The notes beneath the pieces were generated by a model. It had not been told where the DNA came from. It saw only the letters and a list, made by a program, of their open reading frames with translations, and did not search any database. The translations under genes and the position numbers were made by a program. This document shows positions 1,541-21,596 of a DNA stretch of 44,410 nt, piece by piece. The DNA is from Akkermansiaceae bacterium (GTDB lineage: Bacteria; Verrucomicrobiota; Verrucomicrobiia; Verrucomicrobiales; Akkermansiaceae). Each line of letters begins with the position of its first letter. Position 1 is the first letter of the stretch. The stretch is taken from assembly GCA_022424905.1 (NCBI GenBank), contig JAKMGP010000139.1:1-44410 (forward strand), read 5' to 3'.

Positions 1541-2311
1541 ATGATTCATCCAACCGCAATTGTCTCACCCAACGCAAAAATCGGAGCCGATACCGAGATC
1601 GGCCCTTACTGTGTCATTGAAGCAAACGTCACTCTGGGCGAACGATGTAAGCTCCACTCGCACGTCGTTATTCACGGCAACAGTGACATCGGCAACGAAA
1701 ATGAATTTTTTCCCTTTGCTGCAATCGGCATTAAATCACAGGACCTCAAATATTCCGGAGAACCAACTGCACTCGTAATAGGAGATCGCAACGTCTTTCG
1801 TGAAAACACAACTGTCCACCGCGGAACGGAAGAGGACTCCCCGACCCGAATTGGCTCAGATAATCTTTGCCTCTCCTATGCTCACATCGCACACGATTGC
1901 CAGGTCGGAAATAACATCATCCTCTCCAACAACGGAACCCTCGCTGGCCATGTTCACATCGCTGACTACGCTATCATCTCCGGCCTCACTGCCGTCCATC
2001 AGTTCTGCAAGGTAGGAGCGCATTCCATTACCGGAGGAATCTCCAAGATCGTTCAGGATATCCCACCCTTCACAATCGTCGACGGAAACCCATCCACCGT
2101 CCGCGGGGTCAACCAAGTTGGCCTCCAAAGACGCGGGTTTAGTGATGAAGACATCCGAGCTCTCCGAACTGCCTACAAAAAACTCTTTCTCAAAAAAGAC
2201 ACCAATCTTACCAAAGCCGTTAAGACCCTCGATCCAGCAGTTTCGAGCAATAAGAAAGTATGTGAACTTCTTGCCTTTATCGAAGACTCAAAACGCGGGG
2301 TCATCCGCTAA
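1541..2311 (+). CDS. lpxA: UDP-N-acetylglucosamine O-acyltransferase LpxA
   Basis: This cytosolic enzyme makes the first step of lipid A synthesis, transferring a 3-hydroxyacyl chain from acyl carrier protein to the 3-OH of UDP-GlcNAc. The 256-residue product has the expected left-handed beta-helix of hexapeptide repeats (residues 1-185, starting IHPTAIVSPNAKIG). The SYAHIAHDCQVGN segment places the catalytic His at 118 (E. coli His125), and a GNPSTVRGVNQVGL segment leads into the C-terminal helical domain. Length matches the family (about 255-265). The usual neighbours lpxD, fabZ and lpxB are absent; it follows a DUF2452-like gene and converges on pfkA, overlapping its stop codon by 4 bp. 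Its presence implies an LPS-bearing outer membrane. Confidence 0.96.
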   Translation: MIHPTAIVSPNAKIGADTEIGPYCVIEANVTLGERCKLHSHVVIHGNSDIGNENEFFPFAAIGIKSQDLKYSGEPTALVIGDRNVFRENTTVHRGTEEDSPTRIGSDNLCLSYAHIAHDCQVGNNIILSNNGTLAGHVHIADYAIISGLTAVHQFCKVGAHSITGGISKIVQDIPPFTIVDGNPSTVRGVNQVGLQRRGFSDEDIRALRTAYKKLFLKKDTNLTKAVKTLDPAVSSNKKVCELLAFIEDSKRGVIR

Positions 2312-3273
2312 CAACTTAATCCGCGAACCAAATCAAGCAGACTGGCCTCACACTCATGCTTGGTATCAGAGATCTGATGGATCGAGGAACTGCCAAACCG
2401 CCCATTCCTAAAAGTCACGACCCGGTTGGTATCACCAGCTAGCAGGTGATCAACTGCGGCGACTGCAAATTTATAGGCCATAATCCGATCATAAACTGTC
2501 GGGGAACCGCCTCGCTGGACATGACCCAAAACGGTTAGACGGGCATCCATATCCAAAAAGTCGCCCATCCACCGTGTTAGAGGTTCGGCCATACCAGTCC
2601 CTTCCGCAACAATCCCTAAAACATAGCGTTTTCCATCTGCGCGTTGTTGCCGCAATCTTTCGCCAACCGCATCGAGATCATACTTAATCTCCGGAACCAG
2701 ACAGACTTCCGCACCATTTGCAAGGGCGCTTACCATCGCGAGATACCCACAATCACGTCCCATCGTTTCGATTACAAATGCCCTCGAAAAAGAGGACGCA
2801 GTATCACGAATACTATCTACACTCGACCGAATCATATTGAGTGCTGTGTCGACTCCAAGGCAGTAATCGGTCCCCGAAATGTCGTTATCAATCGTCGCGG
2901 GAATACCAGCAAACGGTACTTTGAAATCGACGTAGAATTGGTTTAATGCGTTGAAGGAACCATCTCCACCAATGATGATTAGTTTTGAAATGCCAAAATT
3001 CTGCAAATTATCAAAAGCTTGCTTTCTAAATTCATATTCAAAAAATCGCTTCGATCTCGAGGAGCCAAGCGCAGTCCCACCCCGATAGAGCATACCACTC
3101 AGACGCTCAGGCGTAGCTTCTTTGATCCACCCCTCAATCAAGCCTCTCAATCCCCATTCAACCAAGTAGGGAACCATCCCCTTCTTGCGGGCATAATCAG
3201 CAGCTGATTTCACCGCGGGATTCATCCCCGCAGCATCTCCGCCGGAAGTTAGGATTGCAATTTTTTCACTCAA
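2308..3273 (-). CDS. pfkA: 6-phosphofructokinase (ATP-type)
   Basis: Glycolytic enzyme that phosphorylates fructose 6-phosphate. The 321-residue length is typical. Motifs: GGDAAGMN (11-18) at the nucleotide loop; IGGDGSF, where Gly105 after GGD favours ATP over pyrophosphate; GIPATIDND (123-131) with catalytic Asp129; ETMGRDCG (169-176); and a later GHVQRGGSP effector/substrate segment. Ala126 replaces the Gly usual in ATP enzymes at the GxPxTIDND position; PPi-dependent enzymes have Lys there. The only plausible start in frame is a TTG at 3273, as a stop lies a few codons upstream and no ATG is available. It follows the PAS-PP2C gene by 33 bp, so it may be last in that operon. Confidence 0.94.
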   Translation of the reverse strand: MSEKIAILTSGGDAAGMNPAVKSAADYARKKGMVPYLVEWGLRGLIEGWIKEATPERLSGMLYRGGTALGSSRSKRFFEYEFRKQAFDNLQNFGISKLIIIGGDGSFNALNQFYVDFKVPFAGIPATIDNDISGTDYCLGVDTALNMIRSSVDSIRDTASSFSRAFVIETMGRDCGYLAMVSALANGAEVCLVPEIKYDLDAVGERLRQQRADGKRYVLGIVAEGTGMAEPLTRWMGDFLDMDARLTVLGHVQRGGSPTVYDRIMAYKFAVAAVDHLLAGDTNRVVTFRNGRFGSSSIHQISDTKHECEASLLDLVRGLSC

Positions 3274-3306: not shown

Positions 3307-5310
3307 TCAAGCCCGGTGCCCAAAATCGACCCCCAAAACACAGAGATCATCCTCAAAAACCTTTTCAGCTGCAAAATTAACAGCGGCGTCCACTACCCGG
3401 TCGATCGCGTCCACCATTCGATCTCCACTCTGTAGCGCTTCACACATTTTAGCTACGCCAAACTCTTGTCCATCAACACCCAGAACCTCAAAGAGACCAT
3501 CGGTAAAGGTCCAAATTCCATCCAGAGATTCCACAGGAAGACACATTTCAGGGAATTTGAACTCTGGGACCATTCCCAATCCAGGACCTTGAGCCTCAGA
3601 TCCCAATTCTAAAATTTCAACCACTCCATTCCGACTCACAATGGGATTCGGATGGCCAGCTGAAGCGATTTTCAGCTCACCACGCTCTAAGTCCACGTAA
3701 CCATAAATAGCGGTCGCAAAAATCAATTGACTAGTTCGTTCGAGTAGATGGGACAAGCCATCATTCAATCCCTCCAAAAACGCCCCTGGCTGCCTCCCCA
3801 GAGTCTCTCCCTGCTTTTCAAGCAAACCACGCAACATCGAAACAATCAGTGCCGAACGCACGCCGTGCCCCATAACATCACAAACAAAAAAACCTGCCTT
3901 CCCTTCACCCAGTGGAATCACCTCAAAGAAGTCTCCTGCTAGATGAGACGCCGGTTGATGACGATGATGGAAATCCGCAGTCCGCCCACTTTCCTGACAT
4001 GCAATAGCCGGAATAACACTAGGCAAAGCCGCCTGCTGAATCTCTCGCGCCAGTCCCAACTGCTCTTCAAGAGCCTCATTCTGACGTCCCAAAACCCTCG
4101 TGATTTTCTCAAGCTGTTGCTTCGTTTCAATCAACTTAGTCACATCCGAAGAAACTCCAAAAATTCCTCGCAAGGTTCCGTCCGGCAAATACCACGGATA
4201 TTTCGAAGACACAGCCCAGGAAACATGGTCATCCTTCCAAGATATTTCCTCAAGCTTCCTCACCACCGGCTTACCGGTAGCCATGATTTCCCGTTCATCC
4301 CGGATCGATTCCTGGACCAGCTTCTCTCCAAAAAAGTGACTATCACTTTTGCCCACCGCCTCATCCGGAGATTTAGCTCCCACAAGGTCAGCCATTCTTC
4401 GATTCACCAAAACGAAGTTTGAATCCAAATCTTTAAAGTAAACAAACACCGGCATATTATCGATCACTAACCGAAGAAGGTGGCGTTCTTCACTAATCTC
4501 CTGATTTACTACCCTCAATTTTTCCGCAATCTGCTCAAGGTTCCGTTCGGTTTCGATTAGCTCGGTCACATCATGAGTCAGCCCAAAAGTCCCGAGTAAC
4601 TCTCCATTCAATCCGCGCCACACTTTTTTAGTCACTAAACTCCACGACTCATGCCCGTCCCCCCAGATTTCATGCTCCAACTTCTCCTCCTGACCAACCT
4701 CCGTCTCCATAATTTCAAGCTCTCGGGCCCGCGAGAAATCGGCATGCTCCTTTTCAAAAAAATCGTGGTCCCTTTTCCCGATCAAATTCGAAATCGTTCC
4801 AGCTCCCACGCGTTGAGCAGTTGACCGATTTGCCCGCATAAAGCGTGAATCCTTGTCCTTGAAATAAACATTAATGGGAACCCGATCTAAAATCAAATCG
4901 ATCATCTTGCGTTCCTCGGCCAGCGCCTTCTCCGCAAAGCGTCGCTTTGAAATATCAATTAGGCTTCCGACCAAGCGCATCAAGGTCCCATCGTCATCCC
5001 GCAATGGCAAAGCCCTCGCTCTAAACCATTTCCACTCGCCCGAATTTGTGCGAATTCTAGCCTCATCTGCAAATAACTTCCCACCCCGATGCAGGACACG
5101 ATTCAGCTTCCGAGTAAACCTTGCAAAATCTTCGGGATGCACGTGTTGCTCCGGTTTTTCTAAGATGTTTGGCGCCCCAAAACGTCCATAACCCAAAAAT
5201 CCGAGCAGACGATTAGAATAGTAGATCTCCCCCGTCTGAAGATCCCAATCAAGAATCCCCTCATTCGAAGCCTTGAGGGCCAAATCAAGCCTCTCCTCTT
5301 CCAAACTCAT
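3307..5310 (-). CDS. PAS-PAS-PAS-PP2C (SpoIIE/RsbU-type) phosphatase, catalytic residues intact
   Basis: The protein has three PAS domains (about residues 5-120, 130-255 and 280-395), a short coiled linker ending LAREIQQAALP, and a C-terminal SpoIIE/PP2C domain. This class dephosphorylates anti-sigma antagonists or related partners in response to a PAS-sensed signal. Metal-binding motifs are kept: AGDFFE (Asp460), CDVMGHG (Asp478), TDGLFE (Asp604) and EDDLCVL (Asp654/655). PAS2 and PAS3 each carry a NVYFKDxxSRF-like motif and look like an internal duplication. No membrane segment is visible, so it is probably cytosolic. The start at 5310 (667 aa) gives an ATGA overlap with the upstream paralogue and aligns with that protein's Met1; a longer frame to 5337 exists. 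The partner protein is unknown. Confidence 0.88.
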   Translation of the reverse strand: MSLEEERLDLALKASNEGILDWDLQTGEIYYSNRLLGFLGYGRFGAPNILEKPEQHVHPEDFARFTRKLNRVLHRGGKLFADEARIRTNSGEWKWFRARALPLRDDDGTLMRLVGSLIDISKRRFAEKALAEERKMIDLILDRVPINVYFKDKDSRFMRANRSTAQRVGAGTISNLIGKRDHDFFEKEHADFSRARELEIMETEVGQEEKLEHEIWGDGHESWSLVTKKVWRGLNGELLGTFGLTHDVTELIETERNLEQIAEKLRVVNQEISEERHLLRLVIDNMPVFVYFKDLDSNFVLVNRRMADLVGAKSPDEAVGKSDSHFFGEKLVQESIRDEREIMATGKPVVRKLEEISWKDDHVSWAVSSKYPWYLPDGTLRGIFGVSSDVTKLIETKQQLEKITRVLGRQNEALEEQLGLAREIQQAALPSVIPAIACQESGRTADFHHRHQPASHLAGDFFEVIPLGEGKAGFFVCDVMGHGVRSALIVSMLRGLLEKQGETLGRQPGAFLEGLNDGLSHLLERTSQLIFATAIYGYVDLERGELKIASAGHPNPIVSRNGVVEILELGSEAQGPGLGMVPEFKFPEMCLPVESLDGIWTFTDGLFEVLGVDGQEFGVAKMCEALQSGDRMVDAIDRVVDAAVNFAAEKVFEDDLCVLGVDFGHRA

Positions 5311-7298
5311 CTCGTGATCTCCCATCCCAACAAACAAATTGCATTTTTAAATTCCTGAGATCCTCCAAAATTCTTTACTGACTCTGCAAGTCTCTCCATT
5401 ACCCGGTCTAAATCACCACCTCGCTCAACTTCTTCTAGCATCCGCGTTACTCCAAATTTCTCACCCTCGACGTTACTCGTATTCTGAAATCCCTCGGTAA
5501 AACAAATTAACCTCCGGAAGCCTGACAGCGGCGCCGATACCGTTCCATAGCTATTATTCTCAGCAATGCCCAAAGCCGGCCCGCAAGCATGAACCGGCGG
5601 CACGAGCTGACGAACCCCATCATCAAAAACTGCAATCGGATTCACATGTCCGGCGATCGAAAGTTGAATCTCTCCTTTTGTCAAATCCACTAACCCGTAA
5701 AACGCTGTCACCTTAGTCTCATGCCCCGAGCCCAACAATAAGTGAGACAGCCCCACGTTTATTCCCGTCAAAAAATTCCCTGCGTCTCCGGCTGAGGCAA
5801 TCTCCTTCTCGATCAACCCTCGTAACATCGAAACGATCAAGGCCGAGCTTACCCCCTTATCAAAAACCTCACCCATTAAAAAACCAACCCGATCCGACGC
5901 AAGAGGTAGAACCTCAAAAAACTCACCTGTTAACAGGCGAGCTGGCTCATAAAGACGGAAAAAATTCATGGATGCTCCACCCCCAAAAACTGTTGGGAAT
6001 TTGTCAGGCAAAAGCGCCTGCTGCACTTCCCTCGCTAGCTCTAACTCTTCGGCCATCTCCCGATTTTTTCTTTCGTAAGTTGTAGCGAGCTTCCGAAGAT
6101 CCGATTGCGCCTGCATCAAATCAGAAATATCGCTTGAGACCCCAAAAGTTCCCACTACATCTCCCTCACTGTCACGCCAGGGATACTTTGATGTCATCAC
6201 CCAAGTCTCTTTTTCTCCTCCCCAAACCTCCTTCTCAATCTCCCCCGCGATTGCCACACCCAATTCCATAATCTGTTTCTCATCAGCTTCGGTCTTCCTC
6301 CAATGTTCTTCGGAAAAAATATCCCGGTCCGACTTATCATAAAGCTCCTCCGGACAGCTGAACCCAAACCACTCTGCAATCGCCTGATTCGCGATCACAA
6401 ATTCATGATCACGGTTCTTAAAATAAACATGCAAAGGCACACTATCAAAAACGAGGCGCAGCCTCTCTCGTTCCTCTTCGATTAAATGATTTTGTGCATT
6501 AAGTTGCGAGGTCACCTTTTCCTGGGCTTCACGGGTTCTTATCAATTTAGAAATATCAATAGTTACTCCGAAAGTTCCCCTCACTTGGCCATCATGGCCG
6601 ATCCATGCATGCTTCGTGCTCTTAACCCATGTGTCTTCGCGATCATGCCACTTCTCATGCTCCGTCAAATCCTCAACACCACCGCCCGAAGCCATAATCT
6701 CCTTCTCAACCAACCGAGCATTTCTTGCATGTTCATCGCTGAAAAAATCAGCATCTGATTTACCGATCAAATCCTTTGCCGAACTCAAGCCCATCTTTCT
6801 GGCTGTCGGTAAGTTCGCCATCACGAAGCGCGACTCCTCATCTTTCAAATACACATTCATGGGAATGTTATCCAGCAAGGTTTCAATGAGGTGCCTCTCC
6901 TCTGCTAGCTGCCTTTCCGCCTCCTTGCGTTTTGAAATATCGATCAAGCTACCTGCGATTCGCGTCACCTTCCCAAGCCCATCCCGCACCGGCGTTCCCC
7001 GAACCCGAAACGACTTCCAGTCACCCCTTTTGGTTTTCACCCTAGGCTCTACTGCGAACAGATCCTCGCCCTCTTGTAAAACTCGACGCAGAGCTTCATC
7101 CACCGCAGCCACTGAGGGCAGATCCATGTGCTCGCCACGGTCCTGGAAAAAGTTTGGCATCTCGCTCTTGCGATACCCCATAAATCGACACATCCGCGGA
7201 GAATAATAGATGGTACCTTTCACAAGGTCCCAGTCCCAGATACCTTCTCTCGAGGCTTGGAGCACCACCTGCAGCCGGTTTTCTTTCCAACTTGCCAT
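5307..7298 (-). CDS. PAS-PAS-PAS-PP2C paralogue with degenerate catalytic site (probable pseudophosphatase)
   Basis: This 663-residue protein is colinear with the next gene from its first residues (EGIWDWD versus EGILDWD) to its end. It has three PAS domains (about 8-123, 127-252, 277-396), the linker LAREVQQALLP, and a SpoIIE-like C-terminal domain. Every metal-ligand motif is altered: TGEFFE (Glu459 for Asp), GEVFDKG (Glu477 for Asp, with GHG lost), TEGFQ (Glu602 for Asp) and KNAICLL (Asn652-Ala653 for Asp-Asp). The fold-core residues around them, such as SALIVSMLRG, are kept, so the domain is probably folded but not catalytic in the usual way. I infer a decoy, scaffold or regulatory role beside its active neighbour. 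The genes overlap by 4 bp. Confidence 0.85.
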   Translation of the reverse strand: MASWKENRLQVVLQASREGIWDWDLVKGTIYYSPRMCRFMGYRKSEMPNFFQDRGEHMDLPSVAAVDEALRRVLQEGEDLFAVEPRVKTKRGDWKSFRVRGTPVRDGLGKVTRIAGSLIDISKRKEAERQLAEERHLIETLLDNIPMNVYLKDEESRFVMANLPTARKMGLSSAKDLIGKSDADFFSDEHARNARLVEKEIMASGGGVEDLTEHEKWHDREDTWVKSTKHAWIGHDGQVRGTFGVTIDISKLIRTREAQEKVTSQLNAQNHLIEEERERLRLVFDSVPLHVYFKNRDHEFVIANQAIAEWFGFSCPEELYDKSDRDIFSEEHWRKTEADEKQIMELGVAIAGEIEKEVWGGEKETWVMTSKYPWRDSEGDVVGTFGVSSDISDLMQAQSDLRKLATTYERKNREMAEELELAREVQQALLPDKFPTVFGGGASMNFFRLYEPARLLTGEFFEVLPLASDRVGFLMGEVFDKGVSSALIVSMLRGLIEKEIASAGDAGNFLTGINVGLSHLLLGSGHETKVTAFYGLVDLTKGEIQLSIAGHVNPIAVFDDGVRQLVPPVHACGPALGIAENNSYGTVSAPLSGFRRLICFTEGFQNTSNVEGEKFGVTRMLEEVERGGDLDRVMERLAESVKNFGGSQEFKNAICLLGWEITR

Positions 7299-17603: not shown

Positions 17604-20600
17604 TTAATTCAACGAATCTACCTGAACCCTGAGGCGCATGAATGTTTTCTCGGAGTCTGAAACAAGCGTATCACCAAAGACCCTCAGAACTACTGTCCCA
17701 TCACCATTATCAATTGGGGCCTCAACTAGCCCTGTTTGTTGGGCCCACTCAACCAAATCGCTACCTGCCTCAACAGTCACCACCAAGTCAACCGCATTAG
17801 CCTGCGTCCGGTATGTCATAATTTGTCGATCAACACCCTCGATCTCCTGAATCGAAACCTTATAGCCTAAGTGCTCATCTGCGATGAAAGGGTCTAATCC
17901 CAGCGCATATTCGAAGAGATTACTAAGCGAATCTCCATCTAGATCAGCACCAGCGCCAGAAACCAATGGATCAGCCAATTGCGCATCAGTGAAATTTTGA
18001 TATTTCCAACCTTGGTAAGTGAGTCCCACCACAACCGAATCAGCCCCAGGATCCCCTCCAACCTCCTGGCTCACTCCCCAGTTTCGAACTAAGTCAAAAT
18101 CCTTAAAAGAAGTCTCTGAAGGATCGCGAACAATCAGCGAATGCCCCTGATCATCCGCCATCGGAAACCACCCACCCTCATAAGAAAATTCGAGGATATT
18201 CTCCCCAACCGAATCAATAATCTGAATTATTTCTCCACCATTATTAAGGCTTCCTGAAAATTCTCCCGCCACCGGCAAACCTGATCCAAACCGTAAATCG
18301 AAAGCCACTCGATTGGCCACAACCAAGAGCCGCTCGCCTTGCAATAGGTCAATCCCGGCACCAAAAGTCATCGTGACACCATCAACAAACTGAACCCCGC
18401 TCATCCTTAAAGTTTCTGATCCGGTGTTCATCAACTCAATAAACTCGAAATCTGAGGCCGCTAAATTTGGAATTATCCCTAACTCCGCAGCAGTCGGCTC
18501 CTTTGGCGCATACAAAATTTCCGTCACCCTAAGAGCCGTTTGAGCTGGCGTCGGATTTCCGGGGAAAGTCAAGGTGTCGATGATTGTTCCGATCTCGTCA
18601 CTCAGAGTAATAGCCTCCCCACGGGCTGAGAGTTGACCTTGATAACCACTGACAAGATACCTTTTTTCGTTAGCTTTTGGACTGACTAAACGCGCTCGAA
18701 ACCCAACTGCTTTCCGACCAACATGAAGGGTGCCATTCTTAGGAATCACCACTCCTGCTGGAAGAATCATAGAAATACCGCCCGCAAGCTCCCAACCTGA
18801 ACAATCAACCGCAAAATTGTTTGGATTATCTAGAGTAAAATACTCCCCACTTTGATCAACTGATGCTCCGGAGCTTGCCGGATTGAAATCGACTATCCCG
18901 ATATTGATTAATGGCGCAGCTGGTTGTCTTCCAGGCAACTCCCCCAGCCCATAGAGCTGGGCCCTTCTAGTTGGGATATATTCGTTGAGAATCCGATCAG
19001 CAGCTGGACGCATCGCATTTCTATTCCCCCAAGAACCCCACTTTTGGTAATCGAGATCGGCATCATCTCCTCCTGATCCTGGAGAACTCTTATTTGGATC
19101 AATCAAAGCTACCAATTCGTTGACTCGAGTCGCAAGATAGTCCACCGGAGCCACCGGCGAACCATACATTTGATCCATCAGGGTCCGCACCCTACGCCGG
19201 AACATTCCGTTCAAAACAGAATCATCAAAAACCAATTTCTTCATCCGATTTGATGGCCCAGCACGAAGATTATTATTCCCAAACACATCATCAAAGTAAG
19301 CTGGACCACTCCGCCAATTCCGTCCTAAACACAGATCAATATCCCACACTAAAGGCCGCCATTCCCCTGTCTTATTCGTATCTCGATAAACGTAATAATT
19401 CTTATGTCCGTGGTCTCGATTATTGGTCATGTCCAGTGCCGCTAGGTAATTGATCAAGCCCGGAATATGCATGTGATCATAACCATATCGAAGCCTCGCT
19501 TCGCCGCTCAATCCAAGGCCAGAAACAAGCGCGGATAAGTCTGAATTATTCTCATCCTTACGAGTCTTCTTGTTCACCCCGCTATTTGAGGAATCAAGCC
19601 GATTATACATCTTATAGAGAGCTCCCTGGCCATCAAGATTGACCCTCTCCAAATAACGGTCATCGCCATCCTCTACGAGATCTGCCGTACTGAAAAATTG
19701 TCCGTTCTGCTGAACTCGAACCGGAAACGAATAGTGGGCCGGATGTCCAGCCATACGCATGATTTCATATCCAATTGTATTGCGAGTCTTTGATTTATCC
19801 GCCCAATTAGTAATTAGGTTTATATCCTTGGCGCGCTTTCCGCCATCGTAGGGAAGGAAGCGATCTCCCTTATTAAAGTCAAAATCGAAACTCTTCTTCG
19901 GAAAACTACCAGTCGATTGTCCGTGTTTGTCAGCCTGAATGTTATCGTAAAACTCGCCCTGATAATAAATCGAACCCCGTGATCCGCTATCTCTTTCAGC
20001 ACCTGAGGGACTCGCGGTAAACCAATGGAGGACCGGCAAATTGGAACTCACGACCGATGAGTCCTCGGCAATCGTTCCAAAGTATTGTGGGGAATCCCGA
20101 GAATCGGGGTAGGGAGGAGCGACCGTATCGGAGTTTTTAGAATCCGTTGCCGTCACCTTCCAGCGCAGCATCTGACCCGGCAAAAGATCATTTACAGGAA
20201 TGAGCGCCGTATAAATACCATCACCCGCCAAGGCATCGGACCCAGTGCCATCGTCAACCATCGAGAGATCTACTTCCGAATCATACATAATTCGCCAGGA
20301 CAGCGTAACTGAGGCAATAGGATTAAGCGTCCCGACGATCTCACTCTCAATGACCAACCCACCTGCTGCCGGATCGATTGGAGCTAAATCATCAGCCACC
20401 ATCCGAATAATCGGGCCCAGTTCTGATTCACCCGCCGAATTTGCCTCATAAGGTGTTGGCCTTGAAAAATAAGCTTTCTCTAAGGAACCAGTGACACGAG
20501 AGCTCAGGAGCTCAGCGCCAAAAAGGGCATCCGAACTGCTGAGACTCCGGTTTAGCCCATGGATACAGAGGACATTTTCTCCCACGTTCAAAAGCGTCGT

Positions 20601-21596
20601 GTTAATCAGAAAGTCCTCACCAGCCAAAGCATCGGAATCACTATTTGAGGCCGTCGCAGATGATGCATAATCCAAGGCACTCGAGGAGGGGCTATTGGAC
20701 TCAGCTACAGAATCGGGATCACCATTCAAGTATGCCACAAATCCATCATCGTAATTTATCCTTAAAACCAGATTGGAAAAAGCGCTTGGATCCTCCACCC
20801 AAAAAGGGATCCTGATATAAACGGTCGTCTTCTTCGTATAAAGCTCCTCGCGAAGGTCGGTTGCAATAACATCATAATATTGGTCGTTATTCGTTTGTCC
20901 ATAACCGTGAGGAGTTGCTCCAGAGATCCATAATGAATCATCAAAATTTGTTCCAATCCAAGAATCCAAATTCGCACCATCCTGAACATCATAATCACTG
21001 TTGGATGGCACTAGATAAGTTGCATCGGACCCTAAGGGAGCCAAGGTTTCAGTTAAAATCTGCTGCTTGAGACCATATGAAACATTCGTCACTTGGATTG
21101 GATACGCAGGACCATAATCTTGTTCCACCGTCACGCCATCCGGCCGGATGATTCCCAGATATTCTCCGGAAGTTGAAAGTTTAAAATTGGTATGGAGTTC
21201 AGCCCCCGAAACCTTGCGATCTTTATCCGAAGCAAAAACCACAAGGCTTTGCGACGGCTCCAATGCTAACTCAGGAAAAGTCCACTTAGTAAGATCGTTG
21301 CGATCATCGGTGAGGTACCAGCCCGCAAGATTGACGGATGAATTACCCGGGTTGTAGATCTCTATCCAATCCTCGTCATCACCATCCTCGTCACGCAACC
21401 CTGACTGATTTGACGCCATAAACTCCGAAATGACGAGCATCTGCGACTTCGCTACCGGAGCTCCCAACAGAAGACAGAAGACCCAAAACCCGTATCTAAA
21501 ACCGGCAAAAACCCTAGAATTCTCTCCCAGTATTCTCTGGAAAGCCTTGCCAAATGGACGCTCCGCCCACCTGGGATAAACTGAAGGTTTAATCAT
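17604..21596 (-). CDS. Giant secreted CotH-kinase/lamin-tail multidomain protein
   Basis: The 1330-residue protein has a long N-terminal extension with a signal-like helix (FRYGFWVFCLLLGAPVAKSQ, 33-52). A lamin-tail domain follows (about 54-170, with DEDWIEIYNPG). Next comes a beta-sandwich with LRINYDDGFVAYLNG, then a CotH-like domain in the middle (KKSFDFDFNKGDRF; NYYVYRD; WRPLVWDIDLCLGRN). Two more lamin-tail domains follow (DFNPASSG...; ILYAPKEP...FEFIELMNTGS). A C-terminal ADLDGDSLSNLFEYALGLDP motif is typical of large exported PVC proteins. CotH proteins are atypical kinases that act on spore-coat or surface proteins. It is probably exported and acts at the cell surface; no substrate is evident. 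Repeated low-complexity Ser/Asp stretches are present. Confidence 0.85.
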   Translation of the reverse strand: MIKPSVYPRWAERPFGKAFQRILGENSRVFAGFRYGFWVFCLLLGAPVAKSQMLVISEFMASNQSGLRDEDGDDEDWIEIYNPGNSSVNLAGWYLTDDRNDLTKWTFPELALEPSQSLVVFASDKDRKVSGAELHTNFKLSTSGEYLGIIRPDGVTVEQDYGPAYPIQVTNVSYGLKQQILTETLAPLGSDATYLVPSNSDYDVQDGANLDSWIGTNFDDSLWISGATPHGYGQTNNDQYYDVIATDLREELYTKKTTVYIRIPFWVEDPSAFSNLVLRINYDDGFVAYLNGDPDSVAESNSPSSSALDYASSATASNSDSDALAGEDFLINTTLLNVGENVLCIHGLNRSLSSSDALFGAELLSSRVTGSLEKAYFSRPTPYEANSAGESELGPIIRMVADDLAPIDPAAGGLVIESEIVGTLNPIASVTLSWRIMYDSEVDLSMVDDGTGSDALAGDGIYTALIPVNDLLPGQMLRWKVTATDSKNSDTVAPPYPDSRDSPQYFGTIAEDSSVVSSNLPVLHWFTASPSGAERDSGSRGSIYYQGEFYDNIQADKHGQSTGSFPKKSFDFDFNKGDRFLPYDGGKRAKDINLITNWADKSKTRNTIGYEIMRMAGHPAHYSFPVRVQQNGQFFSTADLVEDGDDRYLERVNLDGQGALYKMYNRLDSSNSGVNKKTRKDENNSDLSALVSGLGLSGEARLRYGYDHMHIPGLINYLAALDMTNNRDHGHKNYYVYRDTNKTGEWRPLVWDIDLCLGRNWRSGPAYFDDVFGNNNLRAGPSNRMKKLVFDDSVLNGMFRRRVRTLMDQMYGSPVAPVDYLATRVNELVALIDPNKSSPGSGGDDADLDYQKWGSWGNRNAMRPAADRILNEYIPTRRAQLYGLGELPGRQPAAPLINIGIVDFNPASSGASVDQSGEYFTLDNPNNFAVDCSGWELAGGISMILPAGVVIPKNGTLHVGRKAVGFRARLVSPKANEKRYLVSGYQGQLSARGEAITLSDEIGTIIDTLTFPGNPTPAQTALRVTEILYAPKEPTAAELGIIPNLAASDFEFIELMNTGSETLRMSGVQFVDGVTMTFGAGIDLLQGERLLVVANRVAFDLRFGSGLPVAGEFSGSLNNGGEIIQIIDSVGENILEFSYEGGWFPMADDQGHSLIVRDPSETSFKDFDLVRNWGVSQEVGGDPGADSVVVGLTYQGWKYQNFTDAQLADPLVSGAGADLDGDSLSNLFEYALGLDPFIADEHLGYKVSIQEIEGVDRQIMTYRTQANAVDLVVTVEAGSDLVEWAQQTGLVEAPIDNGDGTVVLRVFGDTLVSDSEKTFMRLRVQVDSLN

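Follow-up and report, generated by a model that had tools for sequence, protein, structure and literature searches.

RssB of E. coli, the adaptor for sigma-S degradation, is a bacterial protein in which a PP2C domain of the SpoIIE type is present without phosphatase function, and a helical linker connects it to a sensor domain. In this work, we describe a protein that shares these features and is encoded in a stretch of 44,410 nucleotides (the window: contig JAKMGP010000139.1 of assembly GCA_022424905.1, positions 1 to 44,410) from an Akkermansiaceae bacterium. It is the product of the upstream gene (UP) of two adjoining paralogues on the minus strand, and the downstream gene (DOWN) bears the metal motifs of an active phosphatase. 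Our analyses make it highly probable that UP is a maintained pseudophosphatase of the PPM family, and we propose, with about equal room for doubt, that it is a regulatory, probably heterodimeric, partner of the active DOWN protein. In contrast to UP, RssB has a receiver domain, lacks part of the fold at its C-terminus and has no active paralogue encoded beside it, whereas UP has three PAS domains, a full-length fold and a twin, predicted to be active, next to it.

The DOWN protein shares its fold, its metal motifs, its linker and its switch helices with the RsbU, RsbP and SpoIIE phosphatases of B. subtilis. Those enzymes work together with a dedicated kinase (RsbW or SpoIIAB), whereas none was found here. 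To our knowledge, none of the three has an operonic dead twin. Dead PPM domains in bacteria (RssB) and pairs of an active and a dead protein from eukaryotes are already known. The animal PPM pseudophosphatases PHLPP2 and TAB1 have, like UP, kept the PPM fold and lost metal ligands, and for PHLPP2 this loss has been dated on a tree (PMC12002173); unlike UP they are eukaryotic, bind one zinc (PHLPP2) or one manganese ion (TAB1), and do not lie in an operon with an active paralogue. In the MTMR2/MTMR13 and trypanosome AdoMetDC/prozyme pairs, the live protein is activated when it forms a heterodimer with its dead paralogue (PMC10211241, PMC5201418). Those proteins have unrelated folds and are eukaryotic, and the activation was shown by experiment, whereas our proposal is drawn from sequences and models. 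Among the NCBIfam names, the sole match of the PP2C region is RssB and the best match of the STAS protein discussed below is RssC, as in the RssB/RssC pair of Pseudomonas, a likeness that is resemblance only because the scores lie far below the cut-offs (27-45 of 700 and 26 of 250 bits). Our literature search, which left most subscription papers outside its reach, brought up no operonic pair of an active and a dead protein of the SpoIIE type, and such a pair with intermediates inside one genus looks new among dead PPM domains.

Metal motifs and evolutionary history of the paralogues

The first-pass annotation of this DNA had described two colinear paralogues with a 4-bp overlap, and this description holds. 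Both UP (5307..7298, minus strand, 663 aa) and DOWN (3307..5310, minus strand, 667 aa) are open reading frames, whose stop and start share an ATGA at 5310-5307 (5307..5310, minus strand) by which their translation is likely coupled. In the list of open reading frames DOWN runs to a TTG at 5337, and the ATG at 5310 agrees with the start of its paralogue. The two proteins align colinearly with 41% identity over 659 residues and three gap residues. Both exceed the 25-bit cut-off of the Pfam SpoIIE profile (PF07228), UP with 76.6 bits and DOWN with 126.4 bits, and they contain the only SpoIIE domains found in the source genome (G000), a metagenome-assembled genome (MAG) of 4.05 Mb and 92.8% completeness.

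Alignment to B. subtilis SpoIIE, with its SGD, DGMGNG, SDG and EDD motifs, places Asp at all the metal motifs of DOWN, as the annotation had it: LAGDFFE (D460, 3931..3933), CDVMGHG (D478, 3877..3879), FTDG (D604, 3499..3501) and EDD (D654-D655, 3346..3351), all on the minus strand. This is not the case in UP, which at the same columns, also on the minus strand, has LTGEFFE (E459, at the metal Asp site of the GD motif in the SpoIIE family, 5922..5924), GEVFDKG (E477, at that of the DVMGHG motif, 5868..5870, with DKG in place of the lost GHG), FTEG (E602, at that of the TDG motif and variable among orthologues, 5493..5495) and N652-A653 replacing the DD motif (5340..5345). The Glu residues of UP are thus at the metal sites, under the residue numbers first given. 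The state of these motifs is not an artefact of sequencing or chance, because it recurs in orthologues from many other MAGs. On the strength of these residues, UP is very probably inactive as a phosphatase.

Orthologues were surveyed in 26 Akkermansiaceae genomes of the same genus, which with that of the window make 27 in total. UP followed by DOWN is present in 26/26 of the other genomes, in most of them with the phosphofructokinase gene (pfk) next; UP never occurs without DOWN, and no stop codon interrupts UP in any of the 27. Eight early-branching genomes (G001, G002, G005, G006, G008, G009, G012 and G018) have a fully intact UP; the gene's motif set is partly lost in G022 (GD, DVAGQG, TDG, EA), G007 (GD, DVAGQG, SEG, SS) and G024 (GD, EVKGRG, TEG, NS), and degenerate in 16 genomes, the window's included. 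The annotation had regarded orthologues with Asp as evidence against a pseudophosphatase. Such orthologues are the eight early-branching ones; they leave the assignment of the window's copy standing, and they date the loss to within the genus. All 16 fully degenerate copies have Glu at both 459 and 477, while position 602 is E in nine, S in three, G in two, D in one and Q in one; residue 652 is N or K, residue 653 is A (S in one), and the DD motif is gone from 19/19 derived copies. The proposal that every catalytic Asp had become Glu, as a designed set, therefore survives only for 459 and 477: two of the five positions are fixed as Glu, a third is Glu in some relatives, and the last two are Asn or Lys and Ala or Ser. 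Wherever the motif is present, DOWN has kept its Asp residues, the exception being G024 (L060:2994-5087), in which TDG is changed to TEG and about five residues immediately ahead of it are deleted. In G023 the DOWN gene (L077:3366-5390) has about 60 bp garbled compared with G025 and two in-frame stops, probably an assembly fault.

In a maximum-likelihood tree of PAS3 plus PP2C, UP forms one clade (100/99) and DOWN another (98/100), which indicates a single tandem duplication before the radiation of the genus; UP and DOWN together are split from other genera (95/99), and the order of lineages is broadly alike in both halves. The loss in UP began once, in the ancestor of the 19 derived copies. 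As read from the sequences on this tree, the DD motif and GHG went first, followed by D477E and then D459E, with the TDG Asp last and variable; few genomes inform the order of the final steps. At the base of the genus, as the tree shows, the gene of a PAS-PP2C sensor phosphatase was duplicated in tandem and gave two active paralogues. In one branch UP then lost its metal site stepwise and, we propose, became a pseudophosphatase kept as a regulatory partner of DOWN. The path from an enzyme to a regulatory pseudoenzyme is usually inferred from its end states. In this genus, UP copies that are intact, half-lost or fully degenerate exist side by side in an unchanged operon, with the active DOWN next to them as internal control, and the steps of the loss (DD motif and GHG, two fixed Asp-to-Glu changes, free site) provide a series open to expression and assay. 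A genome of another genus, G034 (L043:3908-7112), has an apparently independent tandem pair of PAS-PP2C genes; both copies are intact and branch outside the clade of UP and DOWN, so that descent from the same duplication is not supported, and the pair is a natural control, a tandem duplication without loss.

Selection was assessed in nine close relatives by the ratio of nonsynonymous to synonymous substitution rates (dN/dS, Nei-Gojobori method). In the PP2C domain, the ratio is 0.083 for degenerate UP and 0.075 for DOWN; over the whole gene, it is 0.059 and 0.064, respectively. Since the degenerate domain matches that of DOWN, UP is being maintained and is not decaying, as the annotation had supposed in calling the loss non-random. 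The mean number of changes per PP2C column is 1.93 in UP and 1.81 in DOWN. Codons 459 and 477 of UP together show four synonymous and no amino-acid changes, while codon 602 shows five amino-acid changes. For neutral Glu codons, the probability that four of four changes would be synonymous is about 0.001-0.012, depending on transition bias, a post hoc and parsimony-based figure. E459 and E477 look selected, and not just tolerated, because their codons vary only synonymously.

Candidate substrate and possible roles of UP

A stand-alone STAS protein with a conserved DSTFMG loop is encoded in 21/27 genomes of the genus, among them 13/13 of the good ones, and nearly all genomes of Akkermansiaceae relatives have one. 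In eight other genera, the STAS gene immediately precedes an ordinary PP2C gene of about 490 aa: this arrangement is found in 13/16 of the loci L128-L143 and at the extra PP2C gene of G026 in L058, and the three of those loci without STAS upstream hold relatives of UP and DOWN instead. The same arrangement is seen across Akkermansiaceae (L128-L143 and L105-L127). Several near-complete genomes of the genus, such as G021 (97% complete, two SpoIIE-domain matches, one STAS), have only the two SpoIIE-domain matches expected from UP and DOWN and still keep the STAS protein. DOWN is therefore, by elimination, the likely STAS phosphatase, and its substrate is likely to be this single stand-alone protein, with the DSTFMG loop as phospho-acceptor.

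What could be the role of UP beside such a phosphatase? Related PPM phosphatases are linker-driven dimers through alpha1/alpha2 (PMC12143880), switched by the linker helix and the alpha1/alpha2 switch helices in the dimer (PMC12143880, PMC5468089), and those of the RsbU/SpoIIE type recognize STAS proteins by three loops, namely alpha2/beta4, the flap and alpha3/4 (PMC11418112). In the structural model of UP (predicted local distance difference test, pLDDT, 71; predicted template modelling score, pTM, 0.40), the PAS and PP2C folds are confident and their relative placement is uncertain. The PP2C domain (residues 446-661, 5316..5963, minus strand, by profile and fold match) is most similar to P. 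aeruginosa RssB (Z 19.3), SiaA (19.2) and Rv1364c (18.7), followed by SpoIIE (16.6) and E. coli RssB (15.2), which bears out the folded domain first predicted. The alpha1 switch helix of UP (residues 482-500, 5799..5855, minus strand) is retained: its conservation is 0.90 in UP and 0.87 in DOWN, and identity between the two is 0.84 there, compared with only 0.32 in the catalytic stretch 467-481. With loop boundaries set by homology, conservation of the alpha2/beta4 loop is 0.48 in degenerate UP, 0.77 in DOWN and 0.72 in intact UP, and that of the alpha3/4 loop is 0.52, 0.76 and 0.71, respectively. A kept alpha1 helix with two of three docking loops relaxed favours a role in switching or dimerisation over one in substrate binding; of the functions first suggested, regulation is thus preferred, and shielding of the substrate or competition for it is weakened.

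Our current hypothesis is that UP and DOWN may form a heterodimer, the likeliest mechanism, joined through their PAS domains, the helical linker alpha0 (UP residues 392-428, 6015..6125, minus strand, of equal length in DOWN) and the alpha1 switch helix. UP would provide signal input and switch contacts, and DOWN alone would dephosphorylate the substrate. A stronger version, which we hold tentatively and consider rather doubtful, is that in the dead subunit the fixed residues E459 and E477 stand in for the metal-bound state, keeping the switch helix of this subunit 'on', so that UP would be an obligate, metal-independent activator of DOWN, a prozyme; if this were true, the origin of an activator subunit could be followed through its successive steps in a single genus. 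In either form, the system could serve to test asymmetric heterodimers among PPM phosphatases.

Several observations weigh against a regulatory partnership of this kind. The structure predictions are of single chains, with a pTM of 0.40 for UP and 0.42 for DOWN. Outgroup genomes, which mostly have a single copy, share the conservation of the alpha1 helix and of linker length, and for this reason such conservation is no proof of a heterodimer; equal PAS and linker length is similarly a weak proof, given that nearly all outgroup proteins align there without gaps. A STAS gene adjoining the pair was sought, and none is present in the fetched loci of UP and DOWN. In the 92.8%-complete genome of the window no free-standing RsbW-type kinase (HATPase_c_2) was found, only histidine kinases, so the phosphorylation cycle is incomplete; likewise, no match to such a kinase was obtained at 1e-6 in the near-complete genomes G083, G074 and G062. 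Finally, in G024 both paralogues may be impaired, unless the assembly is faulty.

A different function for the folded UP protein would be to shield the substrate, binding phosphorylated STAS without dephosphorylating it and so competing with DOWN, as does the known competitor pseudophosphatase STYX (PMC10211241). The kept fold and the flap segment 562-592, which is more conserved in UP (0.62) than in DOWN (0.48), would suit such a shield, but the lower conservation of the alpha2/beta4 and alpha3/4 loops after the loss is unexpected if STAS binding were selected, and we consider it unlikely. The conserved flap would also agree with an adaptor that, independently of DOWN, uses its PP2C switch to control binding to another partner, such as a sigma factor, a protease or the phosphofructokinase. 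E. coli RssB is such a PPM pseudophosphatase adaptor (PMC5468089), the RssB proteins of P. aeruginosa and E. coli are among the closest folds, and almost every genome of the genus has pfk linked to the pair. However, no partner was identified, UP is always accompanied by DOWN in the genus, and UP falls outside the NCBIfam RssB family (NF045505), having no receiver domain and matching with 27.2 of the 700 bits of its cut-off; here too the probability seems low. Could UP still be an enzyme, with a Glu-based site that binds metal differently and hydrolyses the same or another phosphoester? The invariant acidic residues at 459 and 477 and the full Asp set in the orthologues of eight genomes speak in its favour, but the DD motif is lost from all derived copies, the TDG position is free to be even Gly or Ser, and known PPM phosphatases require two or three metals on these residues (PMC12002173), which makes this quite improbable. 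Mere decay after loss of use, with Glu as one of its stages, could explain the stepwise loss of catalytic residues and the variability at 479-481 and 602, but it is largely refuted, and random decay rejected, by a dN/dS of about 0.06-0.08 along the whole UP gene, equal to that of DOWN, and by retention of the gene in 27/27 genomes without stop codons.

Domain layout and genomic context

Profile searches and models give both proteins the layout of RsbP, with N-terminal PAS domains, a long helical linker and PP2C. UP is composed, on the minus strand, of PAS1 (residues 8-121, 6936..7277, profile and fold match), PAS2 (about residues 137-253, 6540..6890, profile match and model) and PAS3 (residues 284-393, 6120..6449, profile and fold match), followed by the linker and the degenerate PP2C domain; DOWN similarly has three PAS domains before its PP2C. 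Related proteins in other genera have one PAS domain fewer and about 530-600 aa. PAS2 (residues 137-253 of both proteins) resembles PAS3 and was acquired in the genus before the gene duplication.

The third gene of the conserved UP-DOWN-pfk run is pfk itself (2308..3273, minus strand). The run is kept across nearly the whole genus, and the PP2C genes of outgroups do not adjoin pfk; a tie to the control of glycolysis is possible. The FRAM bin names found among the orthologous contigs, which come from Akkermansiaceae or Verrucomicrobiota bacteria, suggest a marine origin for them. Elsewhere in the window, positions 17604-21596 code for a protein of 1330 aa that combines two lamin-tail domains with a domain resembling CotH kinase.

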